Origin: Vallitalea pronyensis
GTDB taxonomy: Bacteria; Bacillota; Clostridia; Lachnospirales; Vallitaleaceae
Direction: 5' to 3'
Assembly (NCBI RefSeq): GCF_018141445.1
Contig: NZ_CP058649.1
Coordinates: 1,383,001-1,447,000 of the forward strand
Length of the DNA stretch: 64,000 nt
Below are positions 440 through 53,689 of this stretch, one piece after another; position 1 is the first letter of the stretch, and every line of letters begins with the position of its first letter. A program made the position numbers and the translations under genes. Below the pieces are notes generated by a model. It ran no database searches. It was not told where the DNA came from and saw only the letters and a list, made by a program, of their open reading frames with translations.

Positions 440-685
440 ATGGATAAAAGTAATCGTGCAATGCTGAGCAAACTCACAGAAATTTGCAAGGAGAATTTAG
501 GTATTAATGACACATTAATCATGGAAAAAAGTTTAGCATCCTATATTAATAATTCAATTGATTTTATCAAAATTGTGGTTGCAGTTGAAACAGAATATAA
601 CATTGAGTTTACGGATGACGAACTTGAAACAGATAATTTTGAAACAGTCAAAGATTTAATTGAATTCATACAAAACAAATTATGA
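440..685 (+). CDS. Acyl carrier protein
   Basis: An 81-residue acidic protein with the acyl carrier fold. Ser39 in the motif NNSIDF is the expected phosphopantetheine attachment site, followed by the helix IVVAVETEYNIEF. I chose the ATG at 440 because GGAGGAG ends a few bases upstream; an in-frame ATG at 407 has no such site and would add eleven atypical residues. It would carry acyl chains as thioesters in the cytoplasm for the neighbouring condensing and transfer enzymes. The helix II sequence resembles that of the carrier domain on the adenylation protein at 15283, suggesting a common partner. The canonical DSL is NSI here, still with the serine. Confidence 0.88.
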   Translation: MDKSNRAMLSKLTEICKENLGINDTLIMEKSLASYINNSIDFIKIVVAVETEYNIEFTDDELETDNFETVKDLIEFIQNKL

Positions 686-739
686 TATAGTTTTTATCAT
701 GGCATTGAATACCCACGAAGGGTGTTGTCAGGAGGAAAT

Positions 740-1897
740 ATGAGTAATAAATCAAAAATAACCGTAAAAACATTAGAAGAAAAAAATCATAGTAGATTTT
801 ATTTTACAGTAGACCTCATGGATGTAGTGGACGACCATGCTATTGAAAAGATATATAAAAATCTGTGTCAAGTTATCAATAAAAATGGACTCAAAATAGT
901 GTATGAAAAATGTTTTGGTAATATTGAATTTAAAGAGAAATGGATGAATTTGCGTAATAAGACATTGGCAGTATATGAAATTGACATGGCACCTCTACTT
1001 TATGTAGAGGGAGCATCCGTTCATAATGCGCCAATGTCTGGTATTCAGATCTATGCGATATCGGATCATGCCAAGATGACACTTCATTACATCCATAATG
1101 GAGAGGGCCATCTAATAGGTACTGAGATGGCTAGTGATGATATGAGGATTTTGCATCTACTTGAAAATACAGGATTTGAAGGAGATAAAGAAAGTGAGTA
1201 CAAAAATATACTTGAAAGCTTTGAAACCACCATCTTAAAACATCATTTTGCATGTACAGATATCGTTAGGACATGGATATACCTCTACGATATTAATAGC
1301 TATTACGAAATATTTAATAAAGCAAGAAGAGATTTTTTTACAAAAGTAGGCATTAACTATTCAGCTGATTCCAATAACCTACCTGCCAGCACATGTATAG
1401 AAGGATTTGGACAAAATCAAGAAAGTTGTATGCACGTCTATTGTATTGATAAACGTCATTCCCATGTGAGCATTAATAGGGTATACAACACCTATCAGAA
1501 TGAGGCTTCAGGTGATGATTATATCTTTAAATCAACTTTTTCAAGGGGGATGGTTATAACCTATGATGATCTTGTAGAACTACAGATTTCAGGTACTGCC
1601 AGTATTAATCAACACGGTGATACAATATATAGGAATAACCCATATAAGCAAATAACATATACCATAGAAAATATTGAGAATATATTAGAAAGTGTTAAGA
1701 TGAATTTCTCTGATCTATGTCATGTGACATGTTTTTTCAAAGACCAACGATACTATGCTATGTATAAAAGTATAATAGAAGAAAAGAACATTGACAACTT
1801 ACCTTGTACTTGTGTAGTAGGTCATGTTTGTCGGGAAGACTTGTTATTTGAATTTGATGGTATAGCAGTAAAAAAAGTAAGATGTAAGGATAAATAA
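740..1897 (+). CDS. Chorismatase-like enzyme (FkbO/Hyg5/XanB2 family)
   Basis: A 385-residue protein with the layout of the chorismatase branch of the RidA/YjgF fold. An N-terminal region is followed by the signature TWIYLYDINSYYEIFNKAR, then LPASTCIEGFG and, near the C-terminus, CREDLLFEFDGIAV. Family members hydrolyse chorismate to 3-hydroxybenzoate, to 3- and 4-hydroxybenzoate (XanB2), or to a dihydroxycyclohexadiene carboxylate (FkbO), and supply polyketide starter units. The start at 740 has an AGGAGG site at 730-735; a GTG at 722 in frame lies upstream of that site and is unlikely. Its place beside an ACP suggests a starter acid for the cluster. Which chorismatase subtype it is cannot be told by eye. 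Confidence 0.75.
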   Translation: MSNKSKITVKTLEEKNHSRFYFTVDLMDVVDDHAIEKIYKNLCQVINKNGLKIVYEKCFGNIEFKEKWMNLRNKTLAVYEIDMAPLLYVEGASVHNAPMSGIQIYAISDHAKMTLHYIHNGEGHLIGTEMASDDMRILHLLENTGFEGDKESEYKNILESFETTILKHHFACTDIVRTWIYLYDINSYYEIFNKARRDFFTKVGINYSADSNNLPASTCIEGFGQNQESCMHVYCIDKRHSHVSINRVYNTYQNEASGDDYIFKSTFSRGMVITYDDLVELQISGTASINQHGDTIYRNNPYKQITYTIENIENILESVKMNFSDLCHVTCFFKDQRYYAMYKSIIEEKNIDNLPCTCVVGHVCREDLLFEFDGIAVKKVRCKDK

Positions 1898-1923
1898 AGC
1901 GAGCTGCATAGATAGGAGGAAAT

Positions 1924-2760
1924 ATGCGTAAATACAGAGGAGTGGTTTTTTTAGGAAAATGCAACCTGAATTGTTGGTATTGTGATAAACCCCATTATAC
2001 GGTTGACGAGGAAAAAGTCATAGGATCACTAAAAAAAATATTGAATAGATTTGATAAAAATGAAGTAGCTATGAGAGTTGAATGTCGAGGTGAAATCACG
2101 CTATATCAACGCATAATCAATTACTTAGAAAATAAAGCAAAAGAAGGATATTGTATCGAAATATTATCCAATGGATTGTTATTAGCCAATGTACTAGAAG
2201 AACATACCAACATTCACTGTGTGGTATCATTGGATGGGCATAATAAGCGTATGAATCAATTTCGGAAATTGAATCAACAACAAGTAGATACTATCCTTGA
2301 TAATATTTTCCGATACAAGGCAGAGATTCAAAGTGTAATCCTTGGACAAACCACAGATGAAATTAATGAATTTATTCAATACTTAATAGATAGGGATTTT
2401 AATACCAGATTGCATCTGTTTCCATGTAGCATTAAAGGAAAACTTATATCAAAATCTCTTGATTATCAAGCACTTAAACAAGCAGACTTCTTGCCGCCTA
2501 AGGAATACTTTTACAGATGGCAATACATATTAGAAAATCAGAAGCGAGATTTTGTATGTGATTTCTTTAAGAATGGCTATACCTATTATATCTATAACAA
2601 TACCATAGAGATGATGAAATGTGATGGTACTCCCAATTGTCATGACTTTAGAGTACCTTTTGGTGAAGAACAACATTATAAGGAATACCCATGTGGGACA
2701 TGTATTAATCACAATGAATACAATAATAGTCGTTCATTTATTAATACGTCAGGAGAGTGA
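1924..2760 (+). CDS. Radical SAM protein (short, C-terminal Cys cluster)
   Basis: A 278-residue protein with the radical SAM motif CNLNCWYC at the extreme N-terminus (Cys13, Cys17, Cys20), which binds a [4Fe-4S] cluster and SAM. A second cysteine group near the C-terminus (CDGTPNC then CGTC) may bind an auxiliary cluster. No B12 domain is present, unlike most radical SAM proteins here. The ATG at 1924 follows AGGAGG. The gene ends just before the glycosyltransferase start. The substrate is unknown; the context of glycosyltransferase and deacetylase suggests sugar or starter modification, but this is only inference. Confidence 0.82.
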   Translation: MRKYRGVVFLGKCNLNCWYCDKPHYTVDEEKVIGSLKKILNRFDKNEVAMRVECRGEITLYQRIINYLENKAKEGYCIEILSNGLLLANVLEEHTNIHCVVSLDGHNKRMNQFRKLNQQQVDTILDNIFRYKAEIQSVILGQTTDEINEFIQYLIDRDFNTRLHLFPCSIKGKLISKSLDYQALKQADFLPPKEYFYRWQYILENQKRDFVCDFFKNGYTYYIYNNTIEMMKCDGTPNCHDFRVPFGEEQHYKEYPCGTCINHNEYNNSRSFINTSGE

Positions 2761-2762
2761 TT

Positions 2763-3932
2763 ATGAGGATATTGCATTTTGTTCAGTCCATATCCGATAT
2801 ACATGGTTCTTTTTTTTATCTAAAAAAGCAACATGCCTTATTGAATCAATATGGTATTGAACAGTATTACTTATCTTATGAAAAAAATCAGGTAGATTAT
2901 AAAAATGAACTTGAAAGTATTTCAGACTACATCTATTTATTGGACAATCATACAATAAGTGATTTACTACATAAAACCATAAAACCAGATATAATACATT
3001 TCGATGATGTGTATAGCAGTTATATTATTAATAAATCCAACAAACATCAATATTTCTATGAGCTGTGTAAGGATATGATTACAGTTAGAACAGTACATGA
3101 CTATAGTTCCTTAGTCTGCCCTAAATTCTTAACACAGGGAGAAAAAACCTATTGTGATAAACCCATTAATAAAGCATGTCTATCAAAAAAATGTATCCAC
3201 ATAGATGACTATGAGATGTACAAGGCTTATCTCAATTCATTAAAGCGTTATGACGGGCTGTTTTACTTTTCCAATAATATATATTCCATTATGCGTGATA
3301 TGACAATAGACGAAACAAAGTTATTCAAATTGCCACCATTAATCAGTCGTCCTCATACCTATTCTTATGTATCGGATAAGGTCATATTATTTGCTGGACG
3401 ATTAGTTCCACAAAAAGGGATAGCCTATCTATTAAAAGCTATGGCTCGAATGAATCTAAGAGATTGGAAATTAATCATTGCAGGTACGTGTGATAAGTCA
3501 TACTTTAGAAAGCTTATGAGTCTGGCAAATACATTGGAGATACAACATAATGTCCGTTTTGTCGGACATTTACCTCAACAAGAATTATTTCAATACTTAT
3601 CAAAAGTAAGAGTGATGGCTTTCCCATCTATTGGTCATGAAACATATGGTTTTTCTGGTGCAGAGGCCATTGCTTATGGTGTACCTGTCATAGCATTTGA
3701 CATAGAAGGTATTGATGAATGGCTCATAGAAGGTATAACAGGTATGAAAGTACCGATAAAAGATATTGATGCTTATGCCCAAGCAATGGAATCGCTTTTA
3801 ACAGATGATATGATTTACAAGCAATATAGAGAAAATTGTATTCAGTGGAGTGGGCAACTACAGCTAGAAGAACAAACAAAAATCCTATATAGTCATTATG
3901 TTAATATTTATAACAAATCAAAGAAAAATTAG
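2763..3932 (+). CDS. Glycosyltransferase family 4 (GT-B)
   Basis: A 389-residue GT-B glycosyltransferase. The nucleotide-sugar binding half carries VILFAGRLVPQKGI, then FVGHLPQQEL and the family signature ETYGFSGAEAIAYGVPVIAF with the E-x7-E arrangement. The start at 2763 follows AGGAGAG at 2751-2757; a GTG at 2757 lies inside that site. It would transfer a sugar, often N-acetylglucosamine in this family, to an acceptor in the cytoplasm. The next gene is a PIG-L deacetylase, the same pair as BshA/BshB and MshA/MshB of low-molecular-weight thiol pathways, so the product is probably an N-acetyl sugar that is then deacetylated. Confidence 0.88.
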   Translation: MRILHFVQSISDIHGSFFYLKKQHALLNQYGIEQYYLSYEKNQVDYKNELESISDYIYLLDNHTISDLLHKTIKPDIIHFDDVYSSYIINKSNKHQYFYELCKDMITVRTVHDYSSLVCPKFLTQGEKTYCDKPINKACLSKKCIHIDDYEMYKAYLNSLKRYDGLFYFSNNIYSIMRDMTIDETKLFKLPPLISRPHTYSYVSDKVILFAGRLVPQKGIAYLLKAMARMNLRDWKLIIAGTCDKSYFRKLMSLANTLEIQHNVRFVGHLPQQELFQYLSKVRVMAFPSIGHETYGFSGAEAIAYGVPVIAFDIEGIDEWLIEGITGMKVPIKDIDAYAQAMESLLTDDMIYKQYRENCIQWSGQLQLEEQTKILYSHYVNIYNKSKKN

Positions 3933-3950
3933 ATTTTGAGGGTGTTAAGG

Positions 3951-4790
3951 ATGCATAGCAAAATTATCAGTGAAGATATCATAAATGCATATGTTCATGT
4001 GAACAATCGTGTGAAGTGCTTGTTGAAGCCAGAAGGTAAGAGAATATTAGTTATTGCACCTCATCCAGATGATGAAGTTCTAGGTTGCGGTGGGACAATA
4101 TGCAAGCATTTAGATGAAGGTGATTTTGTGTCAATCGTCTATCTTACAAACGGAGAAAAAGGTGGTACAAGTCATGAACATATGGTTTCAGAACAGCGTT
4201 ATCACGAAGCACTTAAAGTTCTAGCAGAATGGAAAATAGAAAAATATTATTTTTTGGATTTAGGTGATCAAAACATTATCATTACCAGTGAAAGCGTAGC
4301 CTTGCTAAGAAACATTATACATCAAAATAGGATAGATTTAATATATGTTCCACATATAATGGATAGCCATTTAGATCATTTTACCGCTAATATTATCTTA
4401 GCTAATGCGTTAATTGATTGGAAGACGATAGATAGAAGTATTTGTAGCTATGAGGTGTGGTCACCCCTTGATGCAAATATCCTTATTAATATATCGAATC
4501 ATATAAAACAAAAACAAGCTTTACTTAATATCTATCAATCACAGATGAAACATTTTGACTTTTGGGCGTTGTCAAGAAATCTTACTGCCTACAGGGCATT
4601 AGCTAGTGTAAGAGTAGATGGAGGTTACATAAAAACGGTGATAAAAGAAAGAAAAATAAGGGATATAAAAGGGCTTCAAACCATATTCCCATGGAAACAC
4701 GTAGAAGCTTTTACATGTTATACGACGGAGGATTACTGTCGATATGTTTTCAAGGATTTCCCTGATTTAAGACTGCCAGATAGTCAATAG
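3951..4790 (+). CDS. PIG-L family N-acetylglucosaminyl deacetylase
   Basis: A 279-residue LmbE/PIG-L protein. The zinc-binding motif APHPDDEVLGCGG lies near residues 35-47, and the second ligand motif SHLDHFTAN is near the middle. Family members remove N-acetyl groups from GlcNAc-containing glycosides, leaving a free amine. The start at 3951 has GGGTG about six bases upstream; a TTG at 3936 is in frame but poorly placed. It directly follows the GT4 gene. In this cluster a freed amine would be a suitable acceptor for the BtrH-like acyltransferases downstream; that link is inference. Confidence 0.88.
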   Translation: MHSKIISEDIINAYVHVNNRVKCLLKPEGKRILVIAPHPDDEVLGCGGTICKHLDEGDFVSIVYLTNGEKGGTSHEHMVSEQRYHEALKVLAEWKIEKYYFLDLGDQNIIITSESVALLRNIIHQNRIDLIYVPHIMDSHLDHFTANIILANALIDWKTIDRSICSYEVWSPLDANILINISNHIKQKQALLNIYQSQMKHFDFWALSRNLTAYRALASVRVDGGYIKTVIKERKIRDIKGLQTIFPWKHVEAFTCYTTEDYCRYVFKDFPDLRLPDSQ

Positions 4791-7189: not shown

Positions 7190-10100
7190 ATGGATATAGC
7201 CGTCATAGGAATAGCATTAAGACTTTCTGATATTGAAAAAGTAGATGATTTTTGGAAAGGACTAAAAAAGGGTAGAGATTTCATTAAGGCAATACCAAAT
7301 AACAGAAAAAAAGATGTAGAAGAATACTTACAGTATGTTGATGGAAATATAGAAAAGCTTAATTGGGAGAATGGAACTTATTTAGAGCATATCGATTATT
7401 TTGACAATGAATTTTTTGATATGCCACCTAAAGATGCTCAGTATATGGACCCTAATCAAAGATTATTTTTAGAAACGGCATGGCATGTTATTGAAGATGC
7501 GGGTTATAGCATGAAAGCAATTAGAGGTACCCATACAGGCGTATTTGTTGGCTATGTCAGTGAAAGTGATTATCGACATATGATTATGGCGATGAATCCT
7601 TCTTTTGCTTCTATTGCAGTACCAGGAAATTGTCCGCCTTTAATTGGTGGAAGGATTTCACACATACTGGATTTAACAGGACCCAATATGCTTATTAATA
7701 CAGTGTGTTCATCATCTTTGGTGGCTATCCATCAGGCTTGTGAGTCCATTAAGAATGAGGAATGCCATATGGCCATTGCAGGTGGTATACAATTACATGT
7801 TTTACCGTATAGGAAGATAAAAGTAGGTGTGGAATCCTCCAATGGCAAAACCATGTCTTTCGATGATGATGCCGATGGGACAGGAACAGGTGAAGGGGTA
7901 GGTGCTGTTTTATTGAAACCACTCCACAAAGCTATAGAGGATAAAGATAATATATATGCCGTAATCAAAGGAAGTGGCATTAATCATGATGGACATGCAA
8001 TAGGAATCTCCGCACCTAACCCAATAGCTCAGGAAAAACTGCTTATAGACACATGGCATAAGGCAGGTGTATCTCCCAAAGAGATAACGTATATTGAAGC
8101 CCATGGAACGGGGACAACTTTAGGTGATCCCATTGAAATTGCATCCATAAACAATGCTTTTAGTCAGAGTACACGCCACAAACAGTTTTGTGGTATCGGC
8201 AGTGTAAAATCGAATGTAGGGCACTTAGATGGAGCAGCTGGGATTATGGGTTTTATAAAAGCGGTATTATGTTTACATCATAAAATGCTAGTGCCTTCTA
8301 TTCATTTTAATCGGCCAAATGGTCATATTGATTTTTGTAATTCGTCAGTATATGTGATTGATAGACTTGGAGAGTGGAAAAAAGATAAGGGAAAAAGATT
8401 ATGTGGGGTTAGTGCATTTGGCTTTAGTGGGACGAATTGCCATGTTGTATTAGAAGAAGCCCCTAGAAGACTGGAAGGTTGTAGAGAGGGAGAAGAGCCA
8501 TTTGTATTTACTGTTTCAGCAAAAACAGAATCAGCATTAGCTCAATTGATTAAAAGGTATATTCTATTTTTAAATGAGAACAAACAGTTACATTTTGTGG
8601 ATGTATGTTATACGTCTAACTTAGGAAGAAATCATTTTAAATATAGGTTTGCTACTATGGCTTCTAATGTTGAACAACTCATACAAAAACTTCAAGAATA
8701 TGACACATTAGGTCGTACGTTTTATAAACAAAATGGCAAGCCTCATGTAAACGCCCAAAAGAGTCATAGGATAGATTTAGATAACAAATTAGATGCTATG
8801 TCAAAGTATCTTAAGGGGGAGCATATTGACTGGAGTCAATTCTATACTAAAATAGAATGCAATAAGGTAAGTATGGTGTTATATCCCTTTAAGAAGGTAA
8901 GGCATTGGTTGACCATACCAGGGGTTAATAAAGAGGTTGTCTGTGATTCAGACAATAACATACGTGGTCAACAGCAGCAACAATCATCTATAAAAGATGC
9001 TAAGATGGTGCTAAAAGATGCGTTAATAGAAATAATAAAAAAAGTATTAGGATTTGAAGAAGTGGATACAAACTGTTCATTGTTAGAACTTGGAGGGGAT
9101 TCTATTCATGCCATGAACATTGCAGATGAATTGAAGAAAAAGTACAATTTTAATATGGATCCCATACAACTTATCAATGCAACTTCATTACATCAATTAT
9201 TTACCAGTGAAACTTTATGCAGAGAGAGTGAAAGTATTCCATTAAAGAATAAAAGCAATAAAGAGCAGTATATACCTCTTACCATACAGCAAGAAAGGAT
9301 TTATTTCTCCAGTAAAATACACATGAATGATACCCAATATAATATGCCCTATGCTACTGTCATAAAGGGTCTTTTAGATATAGATAGATTACAAAATACC
9401 TTAATTAAGATTGTAAAAAGACATGAGGCTCTACGTGCATCCTTTCATCTAGTGGATAATAAACCTATGCAAACCATCCATTCGGATAGGGTGGTTCATT
9501 TAGAAACAGCTGATTCTATGGGTAAAAGTATCGATACATTGATACAAGAATTTGTAAAACCTTTTCAACTATCCAAGGATCCCCTAATACGTTTTAAACT
9601 TATTAACATGGAGAAACATCAATACTTGTTCTTAATTGATATTCATCATATCATATGTGATGGGATTTCGACGAATATTATTATTCATGAATTTTCTACA
9701 TTATATAAAAATGAAAAATTACCTAAATTGGATATGGATTATTCTACTTATGTTAAGAAACTCACACATGAAAGTGAACAGGAGATAATGGAAAAATATT
9801 GGATGCATATATATCGTGAAAAATGTTCAAAAACGGTTATTCCGTATGATTTTCCGTTTGATGCCAATAAAAAAAGTGATAGTATGGATACTTTTTCAAA
9901 AAAAATGGATGATGGGTTGTTTAAAAAAGTGAAAAGTTTTTCTAAAGAAAATAGTATATCAATGTTTGAACTGTTATTTTCCTGTTTCAATATGCTCATA
10001 TTTACATACACATGGCGTAGTGATATGGTCATAGGTCTTAATGTGTCTGGACGTAAAGACGTAGAAAGTTATCCTATTGTTGGTTTGATTTCTAATGTCG

Positions 10101-20342: not shown

Positions 20343-20370
20343 TGGATTAATCCTCGAAAAGTATATTAAT

Positions 20371-20415: not shown

Positions 20416-20466
20416 AGAGATGTCTAAAAAACTATATTTAAACAAATTTAAAATGGAGGTGGAAAT

Positions 20467-22168: not shown

Positions 22169-22196
22169 ACCTTGAATGAAAGGAATGATCATTAAG

Positions 22197-40444: not shown

Positions 40445-41206
40445 ATGGAAGAAGAAATGAGTTTAGTAAACAAAACAATAATCATTACAGGTGGTTCATG
40501 TGGCATTGGAAAAGCAGTCGTGGAATTATTGTCTGCAAAAGGAGCAAATGTGGTCTTTACATATCTTAAAAATGAGGCGGATGCAAAGAAAATAGTTGCA
40601 TCATGTCGTGGTAATGCAGGTCATATACAAGCATATGGTGTTGATGTGAAAGATTATCGAGATGTCAAAGAGCTTATCAATAAGGTGATAAGAGAATATA
40701 AACACATAGATGTCATCGTTAATAATGCAGGCATTAAAAAAGACAAGTCGCTATTATATATGGAGCCCTCAGACTGGGATGATGTGATGAATACTAATCT
40801 AACCGGTGTATTTAATGTTGTAAAATCAGCTATGCCATATTTATTAAAGCAACGTAAGGGACGCATCATAAACATGGGTTCAGTAAGTGGTATAAGTGGG
40901 TTGGCGGGTCAGACCAATTATTCGTCTTCAAAAGCAGGTATCATAGGATTTACAAAGGCACTTGCAAAAGAAGTAGCCACCTACAATATATGTGTAAACA
41001 CCATTGCCCCAGGACCAGTAGAAACAAACATGCTAAAAGGCTTAGCCAAAGAGCATCTGGACAAATTACTGAAAAGTATTCCTATGAAACGGATGTGTAC
41101 ACCTAGAGAAGTAGCAATGACAGTTAATTTTCTCGCAAATGAAGAGCTATCACCTCCGTATTTAACGGGTCAGGTAATAACCCTTGATGGTGGGGGAGGG
41201 ATATAG
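40445..41206 (+). CDS. 3-oxoacyl-ACP reductase (FabG-like SDR)
   Basis: A 253-residue short-chain dehydrogenase: IITGGSCGIGKAVVELL (NADPH site), NNAGIKKD, catalytic Ser in MGSVSGISG, Tyr-Lys in NYSSSKAGIIGFTKALAKE, and the C-terminal TGQVITLDGGGGI. It reduces 3-oxoacyl-ACP to 3-hydroxyacyl-ACP and would be the cluster ketoreductase. AAAGGAG is only two bases from ATG 40445 and 14 from ATG 40457; both starts are possible and differ by four residues. Confidence 0.95.
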   Translation: MEEEMSLVNKTIIITGGSCGIGKAVVELLSAKGANVVFTYLKNEADAKKIVASCRGNAGHIQAYGVDVKDYRDVKELINKVIREYKHIDVIVNNAGIKKDKSLLYMEPSDWDDVMNTNLTGVFNVVKSAMPYLLKQRKGRIINMGSVSGISGLAGQTNYSSSKAGIIGFTKALAKEVATYNICVNTIAPGPVETNMLKGLAKEHLDKLLKSIPMKRMCTPREVAMTVNFLANEELSPPYLTGQVITLDGGGGI

Positions 41207-41207
41207 T

Positions 41208-43658: not shown

Positions 43659-44205
43659 GATGCTAGATAAAGGTATTGAACACATTACAATAAAAAAGAT
43701 GGCACAGAAGACAGGGTTGAACGAGGATAGGCTTAATGATTTTTTTCTATTTGGTGATAAGGAACTTTTGATGGATGTTATCGAATATGCTGGTGAAAAA
43801 TGGGTGCATGAAATAAAAGCGAGCATACATAAAGTGCCGAATAAGGATCAAAAGCTGAATACACTTATTTATGGTTATACCATGGGATCTAAAAAGTATC
43901 CACAGTCCCTTTCAACGTATATTGATTTATGGAAACTGATAAAAGATAAACAGGACGAGTACATTAAGATGCGATTAAAAACAATCTATAACTTTTACAT
44001 AGCGGAGTTTACCCACATAGTACAAGATATGGGATACCAGCATATACCATACAATGCGTTAATTGCCTTTGGTATATTTTTAACCCTTATCAGTGACGTT
44101 GTACATATTCAATCATTGATACTTGATAATAAGCTTGACTATGATTACATGTATCGTATTCTAAATAAACTCACTAAACAGTTCTTGATAGGAGAGATAG
44201 TATGA
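43618..44205 (+). CDS. TetR-family transcriptional regulator
   Basis: A 195-residue protein with a TetR-type N-terminus: RIIIIALSEMLDKGIEHITIKKMAQKTGLNEDRLNDFF resembles the helix-turn-helix, but the usual YxHFxxK is FFLFGDKELL. The C-terminal half is a helical ligand domain. It is the only clear DNA-binding protein inside the biosynthetic part and might act on promoters A and B; that is unproven. It overlaps both neighbours, which is unusual for a regulator. Confidence 0.82.
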   Translation: MMIKQRIIIIALSEMLDKGIEHITIKKMAQKTGLNEDRLNDFFLFGDKELLMDVIEYAGEKWVHEIKASIHKVPNKDQKLNTLIYGYTMGSKKYPQSLSTYIDLWKLIKDKQDEYIKMRLKTIYNFYIAEFTHIVQDMGYQHIPYNALIAFGIFLTLISDVVHIQSLILDNKLDYDYMYRILNKLTKQFLIGEIV

Positions 44206-45557
44206 ATAAAGTGATCCTGTTCTATCCGTCCTTTTTAGTTAATAAAGGTGAAAAAACCCTATATACAGATTTACCATTATCAATCATTGCACTAGCTTCT
44301 CAGTTATATAACAACTATGATATAGAGGTTATTGACGAACGATTAGATCACTACGAAGAGGAGGAAATTATAGAAAAATTGCACGATGTGTTTATGGTAG
44401 GTATTAGTGCTACAACCAGCTACCAGATACTTAACGGGCTGCAATTCGCAGAAAAAGTAAGATCCTATAGCAAAAAAATTAAAATTATATGGGGCGGTTG
44501 GCACGCTAGTTTAATGCCTGAAGAAACAATTAAACATCCGCTAGTGGATATTGTTGTTATTGGACAAGGCGAACACACCATAACCAAACTTGCAAAGTGT
44601 ATCAAGAATAATGAGCATTTAGATAGCGTACCAAATATAATCTATAAAACCAAGGATGGTAAGTGTATAACAACATATAAGATGGTATTCAATAGCTCTC
44701 AGATACCCCATAGCATGAAAGATGGGTATAAGTGCGTCGATATTGATAGATATATACACAAGGCATGGGGAAATCAACGATTATTGGGCTATGAATCAAG
44801 TAGAGGCTGTTCATCCAGTTGTAGCTTTTGTTCCATTAGCGCACTTTATCACAGAAAGTGGTATGGTTTAGCAGCAAAAAGCATAGTTCATGATATTCAA
44901 TGGCTAAAGGATCATTATCATATTGATGCATTACACTTTTTTGATAATAATTTTTTTGTGCATAAAAAAAGAGCTATGGAAATAGCTAAACTTTTTATTA
45001 AAAATAATCTAAAGCTAAGATGGGATGGCACCATTGTCACCAATCAGTTTTTAAAACTTACGCAACAGGAAATTGAGATGTTAAAGCAAAGTGGTTTTTA
45101 TCGTATCATTGTTGGCGTTGAGTCAGGTGATGAAGAGGTATTAAAGAAGATAAATAAAAAGCATACCAATAAACAAATTTTAGAACTTATAAAAAGGTGT
45201 AAGGAATTTGGACTATTCCCATCGCTATCCTTTATGGTAGGTTTTCCGTGGCATCCCGAAAAGGATACCCAACATACGATTTCACTTATTGAGAAAATAA
45301 AAACGCTATATAGCGAAACAGAAATACTTTTATTTATCTTTTCACCTTACTTAGGAACCCCACTCTATGATATTGCCAAGGAATATGGCATGTTATTCCC
45401 AAGTTCTTTAGGAGAGTGGTCTAAGTTTACCTATGATAAAGTGAATACGCCATGGGTTACTAATCAGTTGCAGAAAAAGATAAATCGTTATTTAAGTTTT
45501 TTTGGTACGAAAAAGATGACCAATGATGAACAGCAATTCTATCAGAGTTTTGATTAA
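44202..45557 (+). CDS. B12-binding radical SAM enzyme (diverged)
   Basis: A 451-residue protein: B12-type domain (KVILFYPSFLV, IIWGGWHASLMPEE, VIGQGE) and radical SAM motif CSSSCSFC (Cys203, 207, 210), then HFFDNNFF, RIIVGVESGDEEVLKKI and FSPYLGTPLYD. It is less like the five-member paralogue group. GGWHASLMPE is typical of the general B12 radical SAM family. It overlaps the TetR gene by four bases. Confidence 0.9.
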   Translation: MNKVILFYPSFLVNKGEKTLYTDLPLSIIALASQLYNNYDIEVIDERLDHYEEEEIIEKLHDVFMVGISATTSYQILNGLQFAEKVRSYSKKIKIIWGGWHASLMPEETIKHPLVDIVVIGQGEHTITKLAKCIKNNEHLDSVPNIIYKTKDGKCITTYKMVFNSSQIPHSMKDGYKCVDIDRYIHKAWGNQRLLGYESSRGCSSSCSFCSISALYHRKWYGLAAKSIVHDIQWLKDHYHIDALHFFDNNFFVHKKRAMEIAKLFIKNNLKLRWDGTIVTNQFLKLTQQEIEMLKQSGFYRIIVGVESGDEEVLKKINKKHTNKQILELIKRCKEFGLFPSLSFMVGFPWHPEKDTQHTISLIEKIKTLYSETEILLFIFSPYLGTPLYDIAKEYGMLFPSSLGEWSKFTYDKVNTPWVTNQLQKKINRYLSFFGTKKMTNDEQQFYQSFD

Positions 45558-45622: not shown

Positions 45623-47152
45623 ATGAAACAATTACTCAATAAGTTAGAAACAGCATTGTCTAAAATCGATCATCATTTTTCTATTGCTTTAATTGATATT
45701 GATTTTTTTATTCGTTATTGCATACGATTTTCTGAAGAACAGTGCCATGAAGCCATGAATAACATCATGGCGTTTTTCTTGCAAGCGTTTGAAACAGAAG
45801 ATGTGTTTTATGAGTTAGGTGGCGATGAATTTGCAATTATTTTACATAATCATTCTATTAGGAGTACCGAGAAACGAATTAATCATACGCTAACAAGGTT
45901 CAAAAAAGAAAGATTTCTTACACATTTAGGAGAAGATTATAAACATGTAAGAATGACTTTTAGTGCAGGGATAGCGACATTTCCTGAAAATGGCGGGAAA
46001 GATATTTTATGTAAAAAAGCAGTGACCGCATTATTCTTAGCAAAATCACTTAGAAGAAATCATGTGTCGTGTTATATGGAGAACACAGAGGATCATGTTA
46101 ATAGAATCCTATTCAATGAATCCCTTTCAATCAAGTCAATCATTGGTAGATGGGGTGAAATAGGTCATACGCATACGCCCACACCTGTTTCAACATGTTT
46201 ATTGTGGGAGCCACAAGCCATTGCTATGGGTGGACTTGGTAACTTGTTCATTGCCGATCAAAATAATCATCAGATACTTTGTTACCATAATGGTTATGTA
46301 AGCCCCATTGCTGGTAATGGTACCTATGGCTATAGCGGAGATGGCAGTTATGCGGATAAAGCCCAATTGAATAAACCAACTGGATTATGTATATGGGATC
46401 AAAAACTGTATATTACCGATACAGGTAATGATGCTGTTCGCATGGTCGATTTAATAACCAATCAAATATCGACTATTTGTGGTAGGGGTCAAGCAGGATA
46501 TAGTGGCGATGGTGGGCTTGCTGTCTATGCAAAGTTAAATAAACCAGGTGGTATAGTAGTGGATAAAAAAAATAATATATATATCAATGACATTGCAAAT
46601 AACGTCATAAGAAAAATAGATACCAATGGAATCATATCAACCTTCGCTGGAAATGGTCGTTTTGGATTTAGTGGTGACGGTGGTTTAGCCTCTAATGCAT
46701 CTTTTAATGAAATTTATAATATAGCGATTGATAATAAAGGGAATTTTTTATATATCGTCGATTATTTAAATCATAGAATTCGGAAAGTTGATTTAAATAC
46801 CAATATCATTGAAACATGTGTAGGAAATGGTCTATCTCATGACACTGTAGATAATGAGGATCCCCTATTGTCATCGTTAAATCGTCCAGTTGCAGTATGT
46901 CTTGATTCTGAAGGTAATCTATATATTGCAGAAGCAGGTAATAGTAGTATTCGTGTGGTAAGCAAAAAGGAAAATAAAATATTGACGTTAGTAGGAGGGT
47001 GTGGTAGCGGAACAGGACAAAGAGAAGATATTCGCACATATAAACTTACAAATCCTAATGGATTAGCGGTATATGATAATATGCTGTATATTTTGGATGG
47101 TGGAAATAATCGTATTTGTAAAATAAAATTAACTTTTTTGAGAGGAGAATAG
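45623..47152 (+). CDS. GGDEF domain fused to an NHL beta-propeller (protein 2)
   Basis: A 509-residue paralogue of the protein at 41208. The GGDEF domain (about 1-155) has LIDIDFF, LGGDEFAII (66-70) and FSAGIATFPENGG, but the N-terminal LTGLxNR segment is missing and the IND part reads RYCIRF, so activity is doubtful. About six NHL repeats follow (AGNGTYGYSGDG, LYITDTGNDAVRMV, AGNGRFGFSGDGG). No membrane segment is seen. It is followed by an ACP and a free NHL protein, so this sub-block is rich in propellers. Confidence 0.87.
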   Translation: MKQLLNKLETALSKIDHHFSIALIDIDFFIRYCIRFSEEQCHEAMNNIMAFFLQAFETEDVFYELGGDEFAIILHNHSIRSTEKRINHTLTRFKKERFLTHLGEDYKHVRMTFSAGIATFPENGGKDILCKKAVTALFLAKSLRRNHVSCYMENTEDHVNRILFNESLSIKSIIGRWGEIGHTHTPTPVSTCLLWEPQAIAMGGLGNLFIADQNNHQILCYHNGYVSPIAGNGTYGYSGDGSYADKAQLNKPTGLCIWDQKLYITDTGNDAVRMVDLITNQISTICGRGQAGYSGDGGLAVYAKLNKPGGIVVDKKNNIYINDIANNVIRKIDTNGIISTFAGNGRFGFSGDGGLASNASFNEIYNIAIDNKGNFLYIVDYLNHRIRKVDLNTNIIETCVGNGLSHDTVDNEDPLLSSLNRPVAVCLDSEGNLYIAEAGNSSIRVVSKKENKILTLVGGCGSGTGQREDIRTYKLTNPNGLAVYDNMLYILDGGNNRICKIKLTFLRGE

Positions 47153-47154: not shown

Positions 47155-47403
47155 ATGAAAATTGAGGAAAAGGTAAAAGAAATAATCGTATCACGATTAA
47201 AGGATAAAGCAAAAGTTAAAACCCTAACGTATAGTACACCATTATTGTCACTGGGTATAGATTCTATATTAGCCTTATCTATTTTGGTTGAGATTGAAGA
47301 AGCCTATGACATAGAAATTGATGATAGCGATTTAAATATGGATAAAATAAAAGATATCGCTTCGTTTGCAGATTTAGTAAGAAGTTGTATAGAAAATGAG
47401 TAA
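47155..47403 (+). CDS. Acyl carrier protein
   Basis: An 82-residue ACP with LLSLGIDSILALSILVEIEEAYDIEI (Ser in GIDSI) and a strongly charged N-terminus. It starts two bases after the GGDEF-NHL gene and overlaps the NHL gene by eight. It is the third free-standing ACP of the cluster, so separate ACPs may serve starter, elongation and tailoring steps. Confidence 0.92.
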   Translation: MKIEEKVKEIIVSRLKDKAKVKTLTYSTPLLSLGIDSILALSILVEIEEAYDIEIDDSDLNMDKIKDIASFADLVRSCIENE

Positions 47404-48214
47404 AATTCTACAGATTGAATTACTGATTAATAAAGATGCTGGATTATCCAATCCATCTGGAATATGTTACGATGGTATGCACAATACATTGTTTATAACA
47501 GATATGCAAAACAAACGTGTGATCAAGTATCATAATAAGGTAGTTGAAGAACTACCCGTTATGTGTAATCGTGATAAATTATGCTTGAAAAAGCCATTAG
47601 CAATCGCATATCGTTCCAATAAATTACACATAACAGATGCAGCACATCATTGTATATTTAAATATGCCCATGAATATTGGGAAGAAGTAAACATAACGAA
47701 TAACATGGAAAAAGCCATTAATTTACCAGGAAGCATAGCAAGCGATTTTGAGGGAAATATTTATGTTTCTGATTTTCTTCATAATCGAATATGCAAAATA
47801 AACTTGAAGGAAGAAGTATCCGTCTTAAAAGAAATAAAATGCAGCAAGCCTTATGGTATATACTTACATGAGGGTATCCTTTATGTAACGGATACGGGTC
47901 ATAAGCAAATTGTATGGTTTGATGTAAAAACAAATGGCCATGGTGTTACTGTTAGAAGTGATTTTACGCCTATTGCTATTACCGTTGATGAAGATGGTGA
48001 TCTTTACATCAGTGAACATAGAAAGATATATCTTTTTCATCAACGATCTAGAGTCTTGGAATTAATATTAGATAATCACAAATGGCGTCAATTTGGCTAT
48101 GACAAGCTTTGTCATATCGGAGCTCTTGTATCGATTTCAAATCAAGAATTTGTTTTCTCAGATACAATAAAAAACAGTGTCTATAAAGTATCCATAAATA
48201 AGTTTTGGGAGTAA
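47396..48214 (+). CDS. Free-standing NHL beta-propeller protein
   Basis: A 272-residue protein made of NHL-like repeats: SNPSGICYDGMHNTLFITDMQNKRVIKY, KPLAIAYRSNKLHITDAAHHCIFKY, LPGSIASDFEGNIYVSDFLHNRICKI and others. There is no signal peptide and no GGDEF domain. It may be a binding partner of the ACP with which it overlaps, or of the GGDEF-NHL proteins. NHL proteins bind ligands, RNA or proteins, and some are peptidylglycine lyases, so an enzyme role is not excluded. Confidence 0.78.
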   Translation: MSKILQIELLINKDAGLSNPSGICYDGMHNTLFITDMQNKRVIKYHNKVVEELPVMCNRDKLCLKKPLAIAYRSNKLHITDAAHHCIFKYAHEYWEEVNITNNMEKAINLPGSIASDFEGNIYVSDFLHNRICKINLKEEVSVLKEIKCSKPYGIYLHEGILYVTDTGHKQIVWFDVKTNGHGVTVRSDFTPIAITVDEDGDLYISEHRKIYLFHQRSRVLELILDNHKWRQFGYDKLCHIGALVSISNQEFVFSDTIKNSVYKVSINKFWE

Positions 48215-48215
48215 C

Positions 48216-49497: not shown

Positions 49498-50043
49498 ATG
49501 AAAGGTATGCTATATTATGATTCTAAATATGGATCAACGAAACAAGTATGTCAATGGATTGTATCTGAAATTACCATAGGCCAGATTACGATCAACCACA
49601 TAACAGAAAGAATGAAACATAATGTTGATTATTTCATTATAGGTACCCCTATTTTTATAGGTAAACCTATGGCAAGCGTTATTGATTTTTGTCATGCAAA
49701 TAAGCATTATTTTAAAGATAAGCCCCTATTTTTATTTATTACCTCATGGGCTGAGTCTACGATATATCGCGATGAATGTAAAAAATTTTTGGATATGCTT
49801 AAGTTTCACTTTAAAGGACATCATCTTATTCTGGTAGAGTCTTTACCAGGTAAATTAGTTATGGATAAAATCACAAGAAAAGATAGAAAAATAATGGAAA
49901 GACTATTAAGACGATTGGATAACATGTCCAATGAGTTTCAGTCAGAGTCTATTTTATTTAACGATCAGAGAAGTGAAAAGTTAAGCAGGAATTTTGGTAG
50001 GAGGATAAATGAAGTTCTTAGGGATAAAAGCTATTTGTTTTGA
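49498..50043 (+). CDS. Flavodoxin-like protein
   Basis: A 181-residue flavodoxin-fold protein. MLYYDSKYGSTKQVCQWI holds the FMN phosphate loop, and DYFIIGTPIFIGKP and LFITSWAES are the further FMN loops. It resembles the HemG/flavodoxin_5 group. It would carry electrons, most likely to the radical SAM enzymes (cluster reduction) or to the dehydratase activator at 37781. The last 35 bases overlap the next gene. Confidence 0.87.
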   Translation: MKGMLYYDSKYGSTKQVCQWIVSEITIGQITINHITERMKHNVDYFIIGTPIFIGKPMASVIDFCHANKHYFKDKPLFLFITSWAESTIYRDECKKFLDMLKFHFKGHHLILVESLPGKLVMDKITRKDRKIMERLLRRLDNMSNEFQSESILFNDQRSEKLSRNFGRRINEVLRDKSYLF

Positions 50044-50739: not shown

Positions 50740-51906
50740 ATGAAAAAAGCAGCGGTGATTGCAGCATGTAGAAGTCCAATCAGTAAGATACCAGGGGAGC
50801 TCAATTATATTGGAGAAATAGAATTATTAGCAGAAGTATTTAAAGCTGTTATAAAGATAAATAAACCTTTAACGATTGATGAAGCAATTGTTGGTTCAAG
50901 TTTTCCTATTGAAAGAGATAACTTGAGTAGAAAAGCGATACTATCTGTGGGATTACCCCCTACAATTAGCGCTACAACAGTTAATAAAACATGTGCATCA
51001 TCTGATGAAGCATTAGCTATTGCTTGTCATAAAATACAATGTGAAAATGAAAAAACCATGTTAGTAGGTGGCATAGAAAAAGTTAGTAACTCATCATATG
51101 CACTTCACTATATGAAGAAAAACATTAAAAAAACAATACGTAATAGAATGCCTACTTTTAATGATATCCGTCATAATATTCTTGAAAACGATATGACTTA
51201 TATATGTGAGCGTTTGTCAAGAACACATAATATAACAAGACAAATGCAGGATGAGTATACAATCGATAGTATGAAAAAAGCGATTCATGCAAATAAGCAA
51301 AAGCATTTTAGAGATGAAATTGTACCAATAAGGTACAAGAAAGATAAGCAAGAACATGAATTGTATATGGACGAACTCTTGTTAAGTGATCGATCCCAGC
51401 ATGACATCATAAGTGCTCCTCCAATGTTCTTAAAAGATGGCGTACTGACACAATATAATGCTGCAACCATGTGTGATTGTGCTGCAGCTATGTTAATAGC
51501 AGAATATGATAGAGCGTTACATATGGGATTAAACCCTCTTGTAGTTGTACATGCAATGGAAACGATTGGTGTAGCAAATGATAGAATGGGCCATGCAATG
51601 GCTAAGTGTGTGGAGCGTATTTTGAAAAAGAGTGCTTTGAAAAAATCAGATATTGATTTGTATGAAATCAATGAGTCTTTTGCTGTGCAAGCCATGGTAA
51701 CCATTGATAGCTTAGGTTTAGATAAATCAAAGGTAAATGTTAATGGTGGTAATCTAGCTCTTGGTTATCCCATTGGTGCAACTGGACTAAGAATGGACAT
51801 CACATTAATACATGAAATGTTAAGGAGAAACTCAAAATATGGGCTTAGTGTTATGTCCGCAGGTGGCAACATGGCCCAAGCTGTTATTTTTGAAAATAGA
51901 AGGTGA
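50740..51906 (+). CDS. Thiolase-fold protein with altered catalytic residues
   Basis: About 388 residues. The nucleophile loop NKTCASSDEAL keeps the first Cys. NESFAVQAM is kept. The GHP motif reads LGYPIGATG (His changed to Tyr) and the final Cys loop reads MSAGGNMAQ (Cys changed to Ser). ATG 50740 follows AAAGGGGGAAAG; the GTG at 50722 precedes that site. True thiolases need both lost residues for deprotonation, so this may be a decarboxylating condenser, an acyltransferase or inactive. It lies beside the HemN-like radical SAM gene. Confidence 0.85.
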   Translation: MKKAAVIAACRSPISKIPGELNYIGEIELLAEVFKAVIKINKPLTIDEAIVGSSFPIERDNLSRKAILSVGLPPTISATTVNKTCASSDEALAIACHKIQCENEKTMLVGGIEKVSNSSYALHYMKKNIKKTIRNRMPTFNDIRHNILENDMTYICERLSRTHNITRQMQDEYTIDSMKKAIHANKQKHFRDEIVPIRYKKDKQEHELYMDELLLSDRSQHDIISAPPMFLKDGVLTQYNAATMCDCAAAMLIAEYDRALHMGLNPLVVVHAMETIGVANDRMGHAMAKCVERILKKSALKKSDIDLYEINESFAVQAMVTIDSLGLDKSKVNVNGGNLALGYPIGATGLRMDITLIHEMLRRNSKYGLSVMSAGGNMAQAVIFENRR

Positions 51907-51910
51907 AAAG

Positions 51911-53233
51911 ATGAATTATAATACGTATGATGTGGCAGTTATGAATTATCCATTGTTTAATAAAACCAATATTGACCATCATGTTCGAAACATATTTGAA
52001 CAACCCATTCAAGAAGATGTTGAGGTTCCTATATATATACATATACCTTTTTGTGATAGCCTGTGCGATTTTTGTATCTACAATAGGATGTTAAAACCTA
52101 AGTCAATAGATATGATTCAGTCATATGTAGATGCCTTAATTCGAGAAATAAAGTTATATGCATCTCATGATTATATAAAAGAACAAAGAATCGGTTCTGT
52201 TTTTATTGGTGGAGGCACACCAACAGTATTATCGGAAAAACAACTTTATAGCATTATAACCACACTAAAAAAATGTTTCAATATTAATCATTGTGAGATG
52301 AGTATAGAGTGTAACCCACATAATGCTGATTATTCAAAGCTTAAACGACTAAAAAACTTAGGTATAACCAGAGTAAGTACAGGTGTTCAAACCTTTAATG
52401 ATGATATGCGTAAGCGATTGCATATACAAAATAGTAGTCATGCTATCATGGATTGGTTTGAGAAGGTAAAGACACTGAGTTTTGACGATATATCCATGGA
52501 TTTAATTTTTGGATTTCCAGAAACCAATACAGCATATTTTTTAAATGATGTAAAAAAAGCTGTTGCGTTGAACCTAGGACATCTATCCATTTATAAACTC
52601 ACTCTATTTGCTTATACCAAGTTATATAAAGATATTCAAAAAAACAAAAAGATGTCCCTGCCCACACAAGAGCAAATGTATGACATGTTTAGCAAATCCC
52701 ATGAGTATATATTAAACCATAATTATAGCATTCAAAGTACTCAGGAATACAGTAAAAAGGGGAAGACGGTGAAATTCTGGGATTTAATATATGATGGTTA
52801 TGGTAATAATATATCATTTGGTTCTTCTAGTTTTGGTTATATCAATGGCTATTGCTACCAAAATCAAAGGACGATTAATGGTTATATTAGTAAAGTAAGG
52901 GACAATAAACTACCCATAGAAAGAATAAGTCCAAAAATAACCTACACACAACAAAAGGAAAGAGCAATGGTTATTGGTTTCAGGAAGGGTTTTGTATCCA
53001 AAGAAATGTTTTTCAAAACGTTTCATACACGGGTAACAGATGAATTTTCTAGTCAGATTAACAATCAAATAAGTAAAAATCTTATCTATGAAAATAAAGA
53101 TGGATACGGTTTAACTTCAAAAGGCTTATACCATCAAGGTCTAGTAAGTGCAGATTATATGGGGTCTATATTCAAGAATGTATCACCTCTAAAAAAGAAA
53201 ATGTGTATAGGATTACATGAAATGCCTTATTAG
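51911..53233 (+). CDS. HemN/HemW-like radical SAM protein (possible class C methyltransferase)
   Basis: A 440-residue protein with IYIHIPFCDSLCDFC (Cys48, 52, 55), FIGGGTPTVL, SIECNPHNA, RVSTGVQTF and ISMDLIFGFPET, all typical of the coproporphyrinogen oxidase/HemW family. ATG 51911 follows GAAGGTG; the ATG at 51839 lies inside the thiolase gene. In natural product clusters such proteins often act as class C methyltransferases or cyclopropanases that use two SAM molecules. A housekeeping HemW would normally not lie in such an operon. Confidence 0.88.
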   Translation: MNYNTYDVAVMNYPLFNKTNIDHHVRNIFEQPIQEDVEVPIYIHIPFCDSLCDFCIYNRMLKPKSIDMIQSYVDALIREIKLYASHDYIKEQRIGSVFIGGGTPTVLSEKQLYSIITTLKKCFNINHCEMSIECNPHNADYSKLKRLKNLGITRVSTGVQTFNDDMRKRLHIQNSSHAIMDWFEKVKTLSFDDISMDLIFGFPETNTAYFLNDVKKAVALNLGHLSIYKLTLFAYTKLYKDIQKNKKMSLPTQEQMYDMFSKSHEYILNHNYSIQSTQEYSKKGKTVKFWDLIYDGYGNNISFGSSSFGYINGYCYQNQRTINGYISKVRDNKLPIERISPKITYTQQKERAMVIGFRKGFVSKEMFFKTFHTRVTDEFSSQINNQISKNLIYENKDGYGLTSKGLYHQGLVSADYMGSIFKNVSPLKKKMCIGLHEMPY

Positions 53234-53269
53234 GATGCCATAGGATAATAATGTAAGGAGGATTAGCTA

Positions 53270-53689
53270 ATGAAAACTTTATATAAGGAAGATATTAAAA
53301 AAATAATTCCACATAGGGAGCCAATGCTACTTATTGATGAAATCAATATATTAGAAGATGATAGTATCATTGGTAAATACTTTTTTACAGGCAATGAATG
53401 GTTTTTTAAAGGACATTTTCCTTCAAAACAAATTGTTCCTGGCGTCATTTTATGCGAAATAATGGCTCAGACCAGTTGTGGATTATTCTTGGATTCCCAT
53501 CATGACAGTATGCCTTATTTAGTAGGTATACATAACGCTAAGTTTAGAAAAGCAGTTTTACCTAAGGATATCATTCATGTTAAATGTAGCATGGTGAGTA
53601 TAAAAAAACCCTTTTATTATGTCAAATGTAAAATTTATGTTCATCATAACTTATATGCAAATGGTGAACTTACATTATTTTTAAAATAA
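53270..53689 (+). CDS. 3-hydroxyacyl-ACP dehydratase (FabZ-like)
   Basis: A 139-residue hot-dog-fold dehydratase with IIPHREPMLLIDEI (catalytic His), FKGHFPSKQIVPGVILCEIMAQTSC (catalytic Glu) and YLVGIHNAKFRKAVLP. It removes water from 3-hydroxyacyl-ACP to give the trans-2-enoyl-ACP. With the ketoreductase at 40445 and no enoyl reductase in sight, the cluster could build polyenes. AAGGAGG precedes the ATG. It is the last gene of the long operon. Confidence 0.95.
   Translation: MKTLYKEDIKKIIPHREPMLLIDEINILEDDSIIGKYFFTGNEWFFKGHFPSKQIVPGVILCEIMAQTSCGLFLDSHHDSMPYLVGIHNAKFRKAVLPKDIIHVKCSMVSIKKPFYYVKCKIYVHHNLYANGELTLFLK

Follow-up and report, generated by a model that had tools for sequence, protein, structure and literature searches.

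A predicted gene cluster of Vallitalea pronyensis combines a conserved polyketide and radical SAM enzyme cassette with variable peptide, sugar, and prodrug genes

What does a bacterium make with ten radical S-adenosylmethionine (SAM) enzymes encoded in one locus? The question is raised by a 64,000-nucleotide stretch of the Vallitalea pronyensis genome (contig NZ_CP058649.1, positions 1,383,001 to 1,447,000; G000:C1:1383001-1447000), here called the window and numbered from its first base; its upstream flank is labeled L004. A preliminary description of this DNA placed a biosynthetic cluster of about 53 kb in the window, beginning at position 440, and proposed as its product a highly methylated or rearranged polyketide-peptide glycoside, which is possible. 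Our analysis indicates a predicted biosynthetic gene cluster of about 73 kb with two parts, a conserved cassette on the right (22176 to 53689) and a variable periphery.

The ten radical SAM genes lie at or next to the positions first given for them; counting from the first start codon of each frame moves two starts, from 34460 and 51911 to 34418 and 51839. All ten match the Pfam model PF04055, nine of them above the curated cut-off, and each protein carries one CxxxCxxC motif. The gene at 1924 is marginal (29.2 versus 29.5 bits, and 30 bits in a genome-wide scan with frame neighbors). The claim of eight B12-type domains also holds, as PF02310 is matched at 17111, 18711, 27192, 31826, 33157, 34418, 44202, and 48216, marginally so at 34418 (28.5 versus 32.1 bits in the window scan, 32.1 bits genome-wide). 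An upstream protein, L004:12990-17300, combines a B12 domain with a CxxxCxxC motif and adenylation motifs; it gave no match to PF04055 at an E value of ≤0.001 and, judged by its motifs, is a probable eleventh radical SAM protein. The genome has 54 Radical_SAM and 22 B12-binding matches (E ≤ 0.001 for both), of which 10 and 9, respectively, fall within a 73-kb stretch that makes up about 1.2% of its length; chance is excluded as an explanation for this density.

The cluster proved longer than first described. Instead of starting at 440, it extends about 20 kb upstream of the window on the same strand, and it measures about 73 kb from a LoaP antiterminator gene, where we infer its left boundary, to the FabA-like gene that ends at 53689. 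Between bases 6 and 53689, the plus strand carries a run of 49 frames (median intergenic gap, 6 bp; 17 overlaps) in which gaps of more than 100 bp occur only at 20342-20755 and 21909-22176. The latter, of 266 bp, precedes the SAM synthetase gene with which the cassette starts; a SAM synthetase gene stands beside cassette genes here and in four of seven relatives. The division into cassette and periphery, the upstream ClbP-like peptidase/exporter, and the upstream Asn-type nonribosomal peptide synthetase (NRPS) were all absent from the preliminary description.

The cassette recurs in other genomes. We searched 5.8 billion proteins with B12-type radical SAM protein 5 (31826) and considered the best 120 of 1,343 matches. 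Among these, 72 entries, our own included, are 59 to 100% identical to the query; below them come two at 51 to 52%, three partial entries, and a remainder at 45% or less. Among the named sources are Wukongibacter, Alkaliphilus peptidifermentans, Lutispora saccharofermentans, Lachnotalea glycerini, and a Paenibacillus. When genome contigs were scanned with 42 aligned entries from this set of 72, nine loci were returned, namely, seven relatives (61 to 68% identity) and two loci at 32 to 35%; the same contigs scanned with the single sequence of radical SAM protein 4 gave 12 pattern matches and no relatives. Taking the 31 cassette genes as we define them in the window, we counted reciprocal best hits contig by contig and obtained 28 in Lutispora, 28 in Lachnotalea, and 30 in Alkaliphilus (24, with 6 more on a second contig). 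Synteny in other Clostridia, which had been set beforehand as support for the preliminary description, was thus found. Shared neighbor pairs amounted to 19 of 27, 17 of 27, and 16 of 23, respectively, against maxima of 9, 8, and 8 in 10,000 shuffles. On other pieces, the counts were 17 of 20 (G764), 9 of 17 (G768), and 9 of 9 and 8 of 11 (G766), with shuffle maxima of 8, 8, 7, and 7; the second Alkaliphilus contig reached only 3 of 6 against a maximum of 6. Pieces from metagenome-assembled genomes (MAGs) are short contigs, so genes missing from them mean little. At an E value of ≤1e-140, protein 5 was found only in its own genome among 398 genomes of the phylum and 6 of the genus. Such sporadic presence is what a horizontally moved cluster would show.

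In a maximum-likelihood tree of 65 proteins, from which cluster rows under 380 amino acids were left out, the array proteins 4, 5, 6, 7, and 9 separate into five groups, every one of which draws on several clusters (supports in this order of 100/97, 100/100, 100/100, 100/100, and 100/99), all nested in a single 33-row clade (100/98). Judged by this tree, the five copies likely arose before the clusters parted and then stayed together. Since the five clades are shared, each array enzyme looks dedicated and retained since before the clusters diverged. Protein 8 (44202) falls in a separate, distant group, and the program flagged the connection of this group with one outside row as a possible long-branch effect. 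B12-type arrays occur elsewhere in the order, in 29 of 392 genomes (own included; E ≤ 1e-50), and branch outside the 33-row clade; 20 stretches fetched around them contained no cassette, so that the kinship of these arrays is limited to the enzymes.

The gene content of the cassette suggests a polyketide. Its 31 genes comprise six for B12-type radical SAM enzymes, one for a HemN-like enzyme, and others for two ketosynthase (KS)/half-KS pairs, acyl carrier proteins (ACPs), an acyltransferase (AT), a ketoreductase (KR), a dehydratase (DH), an HGD-D/activase complex, a dikinase, and GGDEF/NHL proteins. KS, AT, ACP, KR, and DH are separate proteins, as in type II (dissociated) systems. In KSa, residues C171, H302, and H338 are invariant across 37 sequences. 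Its best sequence match in the PDB is 9s5h (329 bits), which was not among the fold-comparison matches and may come from an already characterized pathway. The ishigamide (Iga11-Iga12), aryl polyene (ApeO-ApeC), and cispentacin (AmcF) systems resemble the cassette in the fold and catalytic residues of KSa, in pairing a KS with a KS-like partner, and in having separate ACP, FabG-like, and FabA/FabZ-like proteins; they differ in that two KS/half-KS sets are present here, with partners of 237 and 179 amino acids, and the AmcF model is matched with 207 of 325 bits. We know of no counterpart in highly reducing type II systems for the seven radical SAM enzymes and the HGD-D complex. Across 391 genomes of the class, our own aside, the half-KS gave seven weak matches (28 to 34 bits), six of them in frames of 413 to 419 amino acids, the ordinary ketosynthase length.

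PF06050 is matched above its cut-off by three proteins, which places the HGD-D and activase set in the 2-hydroxyacyl-CoA dehydratase superfamily. The best subunit scores 80.1 bits with the double-cubane model (cut-off, 350) and 79.3 bits with HadB (cut-off, 750). Lutispora and Lachnotalea encode proteins of 725 and 720 amino acids that suggest a fusion of the counterparts of 35767 and 36565. The dikinase resembles rifampin phosphotransferase (RPH), PigC, and RedH in its N-terminal ATP-binding part, C-terminal mobile His domain, and conserved SHGAVVARE-like region, while scoring only 257 of 1,300 bits with PigC and 196 of 999 with RPH.

A further set of genes lies upstream. On the plus strand, LoaP (NF033641, 169 versus 125 bits) is followed by genes for a 3-deoxy-D-arabino-heptulosonate 7-phosphate (DAHP) synthase, a beta-lactamase-like peptidase fused to an ATP-binding cassette (ABC) exporter, an NRPS, two U32 proteins flanking a condensation protein, the B12/CxxxCxxC/adenylation-motif protein, and a carbamoyltransferase. 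Residues 36 to 491 of the fusion protein, including its membrane part, find ClbP as best solved matches (7mdc, 213 bits, SxxK region [GSMSK] aligned), marking a membrane-anchored ClbP-like serine peptidase, and the exporter half passes TIGR01194 (303.5 versus 286.2 bits). The NRPS is ordered condensation-adenylation-thiolation, followed by a second Condensation-family stretch; the sequence HHLVIDGVSW at residue 1199 resembles an epimerization (E)-type motif. By motif alignment, its code is DLTKIGEVGK, identical in Alkaliphilus, and DFTKIGE(V/I)GK in MAGs G764, G768, and G767. The type D(L/F)TKIGE(V/I)GK, present in four of seven relatives, presumably specifies Asn. Five of seven relatives have ClbP-like genes (41 to 59% identity). 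In G764, G765, G767, and G768, the gene shares a contig with cassette genes, and in G766 it sits on a different one; four of these five also have NRPS matches on the same contig. The SxxK and GSNPN regions are kept in all five, with single-residue differences in the Alkaliphilus and G764 proteins (such as GSNSK and NPNY), and the exporter fusion is kept in four.

Colibactin, xenocoumacin, and zwittermicin are matured by the peptidases ClbP, XcnG, and ZmaM, and in XcnG and ZmaM the peptidase is fused to an ABC exporter. The locus is alike in that a ClbP-like membrane peptidase, again fused to an ABC exporter, stands next to an NRPS whose code is of the Asn type; it differs from these D-Asn prodrug systems in that the genes stand beside a polyketide/radical SAM cassette and in that two cassette relatives have no prodrug genes. 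A likely interpretation is an N-acyl-D-Asn prodrug that is cut during export, and such a prodrug in turn suggests a product that may harm its maker. Neither the Lutispora nor the Lachnotalea cluster contains prodrug genes, so the prodrug step lies outside the cassette.

We consider it reasonably probable that the cassette builds an acyl chain and remodels it with seven radical SAM enzymes without oxygen and that the left part adds a peptide, a sugar, and a D-Asn prodrug cap. The KSa/half-KS and KSb/half-KS pairs, with the AT, the ACPs, the FabG-like protein, and the FabA-like dehydratase, would produce a reduced or polyene-like ACP-bound chain. The six B12-type radical SAM enzymes and the HemN-like one would each methylate, cyclize, or deoxygenate a different position of the chain. 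An ATP-driven reduction or dehydration would come from the activase/HGD-D complex, and the dikinase would add and the HAD protein remove a phosphate. The left part would join the acyl chain to peptide and sugar: the GT4 enzyme would add an N-acetylhexosamine, the PIG-L protein would unmask its amine, and BtrH-like proteins or condensation domains could acylate this amine. On export, the ClbP-like domain would remove the N-acyl-D-Asn cap, yielding the active compound outside the producer. In coelulatin biosynthesis, methylation of a type II polyketide is the work of a HemN-like radical SAM enzyme (PMC9714029).

Several observations weigh against this interpretation. A KSa homologue is listed on an equally long contig for 16 of the 72 protein 5 entries, and for only 12 of the 34 orthologues on contigs of at least 40 kb; these counts come from the best 120 KSa matches and are lower bounds, because Lutispora and Lachnotalea, where KSa was seen directly, are absent from those matches. 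The half-KS partners lack the active-site Cys and yet are not full-length, being shorter than a normal chain length factor (KSa itself has 408 amino acids), so the pairs are not classed as a KS/chain-length-factor heterodimer; the larger partner has relatives of 286 to 336 amino acids, and the partners may still work like a chain length factor. The thiolase-like protein is altered at two usually conserved positions, reading LGYPIG and SAGG where Lutispora and Lachnotalea have GHPLG and CAGG; of three MAG proteins, all have the Tyr and two keep the Cys. The GGDEF motif is intact here and changed in some relatives. On the prodrug side, the Alkaliphilus peptidase lacks the exporter fusion, and the Lutispora and Lachnotalea clusters have no prodrug genes, those genomes holding only 29 to 33% matches on other contigs that lack GSNPN. 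The readings of the Asn and Gly codes and of the E domain depend on code tables and motifs. Finally, a B12-type domain is no proof of cobalamin use, and protein 5 has AprD4 as nearest fold in a predicted model.

This last point leads to the strongest competing explanation, that most of the array acts as radical dehydratases of the AprD4 kind or as cyclases, giving a product that is deoxygenated or cyclized rather than highly methylated. In the predicted model of protein 5, the one of five array paralogues that was modeled, the closest fold is AprD4, a radical dehydratase; methylation is therefore not to be assumed from the B12-type domain. Fold similarity, however, reveals no reaction, and all matches lie under the family cut-offs: the AprD4 model NF033070 (cut-off, 500 bits) is among the listed matches of five of the eight B12-type proteins, with 30 to 69 bits, the 69 bits belonging to protein 5. 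The array proteins share with AprD4, MgmA, CysS, OxsB, and TokK a CxxxCxxC domain after a B12-type domain and, for protein 5, the overall fold, and differ from them in these low scores and in the presence of five paralogues in one cassette. The SAM synthetase gene fits either chemistry. We give this alternative somewhat less than even chances.

More tentatively, and with odds well below even, the cassette can be read as an oxygen-free counterpart of the enediyne warhead cassette. Some 30 fixed genes, among them those for five dedicated B12-type paralogues, a HemN-like enzyme, a dikinase, and an ATP-driven HGD-D complex, would then convert a polyketide into one reactive core scaffold, to which the various Clostridia would attach their own peptides and sugars and which most would lock as an N-acyl-D-Asn prodrug.

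An aryl-polyene-like or other polyene pigment, or a protective lipid, with no antibiotic role would suit the likeness of KSa to ApeO but is improbable, since a ClbP-like peptidase, present in this locus as well as in five of seven relatives, suggests that the compound is toxic for its maker; the chorismatase resemblance of the protein at 722 amounts to 36.2 of 325 bits, and that protein has no relative in the compared stretches of the seven clusters. The ladderane or anaerobic polyunsaturated lipid clusters proposed for Kuenenia and Desulfotalea likewise combine fatty-acid-like and radical SAM genes with divergent KS paralogues in an anaerobe (PMC2649909); here NRPS, sugar, and prodrug genes are present, and Pfam scans of the window and upstream proteins matched no phytoene-desaturase-like family. 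That the cassette makes a membrane lipid or polyunsaturated hydrocarbon, as proposed for ladderanes, with the NRPS and sugar genes forming a separate cluster, is also improbable: the 266-bp gap ahead of the cassette and matches of all eight B12-type proteins to the ladderane-type model TIGR04072 favor it, but those matches (63 to 111 bits) are far under the cut-off of 360, the cassette is rare, unlike core lipid pathways, NRPS genes of the same code, ClbP-like genes, and cassette genes share a contig in four relatives, and the KS-ACP-condensation (KS-ACP-C) gene recurs on the second Alkaliphilus contig.

A literature search has so far found no paper describing such a cluster, as the preliminary description had supposed. 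The parts are of known kinds. To our knowledge and within this search, neither the conserved cassette nor the combination, a peptide/polyketide hybrid with presumed prodrug activation, has been described. Strict anaerobes cannot use the oxygenases that tailor most known polyketides. Separate polyketide enzymes and seven radical SAM enzymes, together with a self-protection peptidase of a type met in toxic natural-product pathways, present in most of the compared relatives, point to a family of bioactive compounds made by oxygen-independent chemistry. Two questions become testable: how an array of B12-type radical SAM enzymes changes a polyketide and whether the D-Asn prodrug logic reaches strict anaerobes. 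Lutispora saccharofermentans, Lachnotalea glycerini, Alkaliphilus peptidifermentans, and the Vallitalea host provide entry points. In the related Vallitalea guaymasensis L81, antiSMASH reported nine clusters, five without similarity to known ones, and "radical SAM" does not occur in the main text of that genome paper (PMC6163223).

The features in the window are listed in Table 1. Pfam matches bear out the KS, KS-ACP-C, adenylation-carrier, and two glycosyltransferase genes of the preliminary description; of its BtrH-like proteins, the one at 5811 stands, and those at 10599 and 12974 fall below the cut-off. The code of the adenylation-carrier protein (15283) we take to be Gly-like; the Lutispora adenylation protein reads DILQIGVVWK. 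The KS-ACP-C protein gave two pattern matches and no relatives among viral contigs. The protein at 722 has RutC as its sole solved match, its chorismatase score being for TIGR04444 (FkbO/Hyg5). The upstream U32 pair shares eight Cys columns with two relatives. UbiU/UbiV-type U32 proteins carry out oxygen-independent hydroxylation with the use of prephenate; by analogy, the DAHP synthase would fit such use.

Table 1. Features of the cluster, in window coordinates
Position	Strand	Feature	Evidence
6..368	+	3' end of frame starting at L004:19025	no Pfam match in part scanned
407..685	+	acyl/peptidyl carrier protein ACP1	PF00550
722..1897	+	Rid/chorismatase-fold protein, C-terminal Rid domain	PF01042 61.5 bits; weak FkbO/Hyg5 resemblance
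1924..2760	+	small radical SAM protein without B12 domain	PF04055 29.2 bits; CxxxCxxC
2757..3932	+	GT4 glycosyltransferase, MshA/BshA-like	PF00534; MshA 80, BshA 58 bits, both below cut-off
3936..4790	+	PIG-L/BshB-like de-N-acetylase	PF02585 89 bits; BshB1 79 of 182.5 bits
5811..6818	+	BtrH-like putative acyltransferase	PF14399 49.2 bits, cut-off 29.7
7190..10573	+	KS-ACP-C synthase	Pfam; full-length relative in Alkaliphilus, 39%
10599..11600	+	weakly BtrH-like protein	PF14399 21.8 bits, below cut-off
11675..12937	+	GT1/GT28-type glycosyltransferase	PF06722, PF04101
12974..14002	+	weakly BtrH-like protein	PF14399 17.6 bits, below cut-off
14063-15199		378-amino-acid protein, Cys-rich C terminus	no Pfam/NCBIfam match; none in relatives' compared stretches
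15283..17067	+	adenylation-carrier protein	PF00501, PF00550; code read as DIVQMGMVWK
17111..18670	+	B12-type radical SAM protein 2	PF02310, PF04055
18711..20342	+	B12-type radical SAM protein 3	Pfam; relatives in Lutispora and Alkaliphilus clusters
22176..23393	+	SAM synthetase, cassette start	PF02773
23404..24630	+	ketosynthase KSa	Cys and two His invariant
24635..25348	+	half-length KS-like partner, no active-site Cys	relatives
25355..25597	+	acyl carrier protein ACP2	PF00550
25590..26696	+	ketosynthase KSb, Cys kept	PF02801, PF00109
26648..27187	+	second half-length KS-like partner	FabF model 25.8 bits; relatives
27192..28514	+	B12-type radical SAM protein 4, array member	Pfam, tree
28438..29436	+	malonyltransferase-like AT	FabD model 151 bits, cut-off 260.9
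29433..31829	+	PEP-synthase/RPH/PigC-like dikinase	PF01326, PF00391; LSHG region of mobile domain conserved
31826..33133	+	B12-type radical SAM protein 5, array member, modeled	Pfam, tree, fold
33157..34488	+	B12-type radical SAM protein 6, array member	Pfam, tree
34418..35770	+	B12-type radical SAM protein 7, array member	Pfam, tree
35767..36564	+	HGD-D-like subunit	PF06050 54 bits
36565..37797	+	HGD-D subunit, 2-hydroxyacyl-CoA dehydratase/benzoyl-CoA reductase superfamily	PF06050 195 bits
37781..38548	+	acyl-CoA dehydratase activase	TIGR00241 237.8 versus 125.4 bits
38529..39704	+	second HGD-D subunit	PF06050 90 bits
39667..40425	+	crotonase-fold enoyl hydratase/isomerase	PF00378
40445..41206	+	FabG-like ketoreductase	TIGR01830 277 bits, cut-off 297.75
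41184..42731	+	GGDEF-NHL protein 1	PF00990, PF01436
42750..43658	+	alpha/beta hydrolase	PF12146
43618..44205	+	TetR-like regulator	BetI model 22 bits; relatives
44202..45557	+	B12-type radical SAM protein 8	Pfam, tree
45623..47152	+	GGDEF-NHL protein 2	PF01436, PF00990
47155..47403	+	acyl carrier protein ACP3	PF00550; 61-82% identical in relatives
47396..48214	+	NHL-propeller protein	PF01436
48216..49487	+	B12-type radical SAM protein 9, array member	Pfam, tree
49498..50043	+	flavodoxin-like protein, possible electron carrier	PF12724
50009..50683	+	HAD-family hydrolase, possible phosphatase	PF13419
50722..51906	+	thiolase-like protein	TIGR01930 304 bits; LGYPIG, SAGG
51839..53233	+	HemN/HutW-like radical SAM protein	Pfam
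53270..53689	+	FabA/FabZ-like hot-dog dehydratase, cassette end	PF07977; NF000582 111.6 versus 113 bits
53930..54268	+	helix-turn-helix (HTH) regulator	PF12844; 62% identical to one beside cassette genes in MAG G768

Between 41184 and 48214, the cassette regularly includes genes for a pair of GGDEF-NHL proteins and for a single NHL protein. Diguanylate cyclase activity as the main role of the pair is doubtful, given the altered motif in some relatives. A role like that of CylK or BrtB, described in another study (PMC7081238), was considered for the NHL proteins by analogy.

At the right end, the HTH regulator may belong to the cluster. A release factor 3 encoded beside the cluster marks the host as Vallitalea-like, being 83% and 81% identical to the V. 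guaymasensis and V. longa proteins, with closer entries at 90 to 93%. Directly beside the cluster on the minus strand (54338-56889) are two genes, one for an effector-binding protein of the Cass2 type and one for an AraC regulator that carries a GyrI-like domain; self-protection by these GyrI/Cass2-like proteins (54338 and 55573) was dropped as a candidate, because they have no match in the compared stretches of the relatives. Farther along the minus strand (59418-60817) lies an ArsP-family permease gene with an ArsR-family regulator.

A second kind of array, with at least four related B12-type radical SAM genes clustered, is found in four genomes from three families: L037/L038 (G026:C1:1488725-1497653), L040 (G098), L041-L042 (G365), and L044 (G184). 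The window ketosynthases have no match in these stretches. Genes of the G026 array include those for a GH3-family protein and a 234-amino-acid protein without a Pfam match, and genes of like length occupy that place in G098 and G184. Elsewhere, at L049 (G350:C4:218001-238000), a squalene-hopene cyclase is joined to a MacB/FtsX permease in one protein; its neighbors are UbiA, U32-like proteins, and proteins related to two B12-type radical SAM proteins and to the acyl-CoA dehydratase activase. The locus may serve in anaerobic triterpenoid or quinone tailoring.

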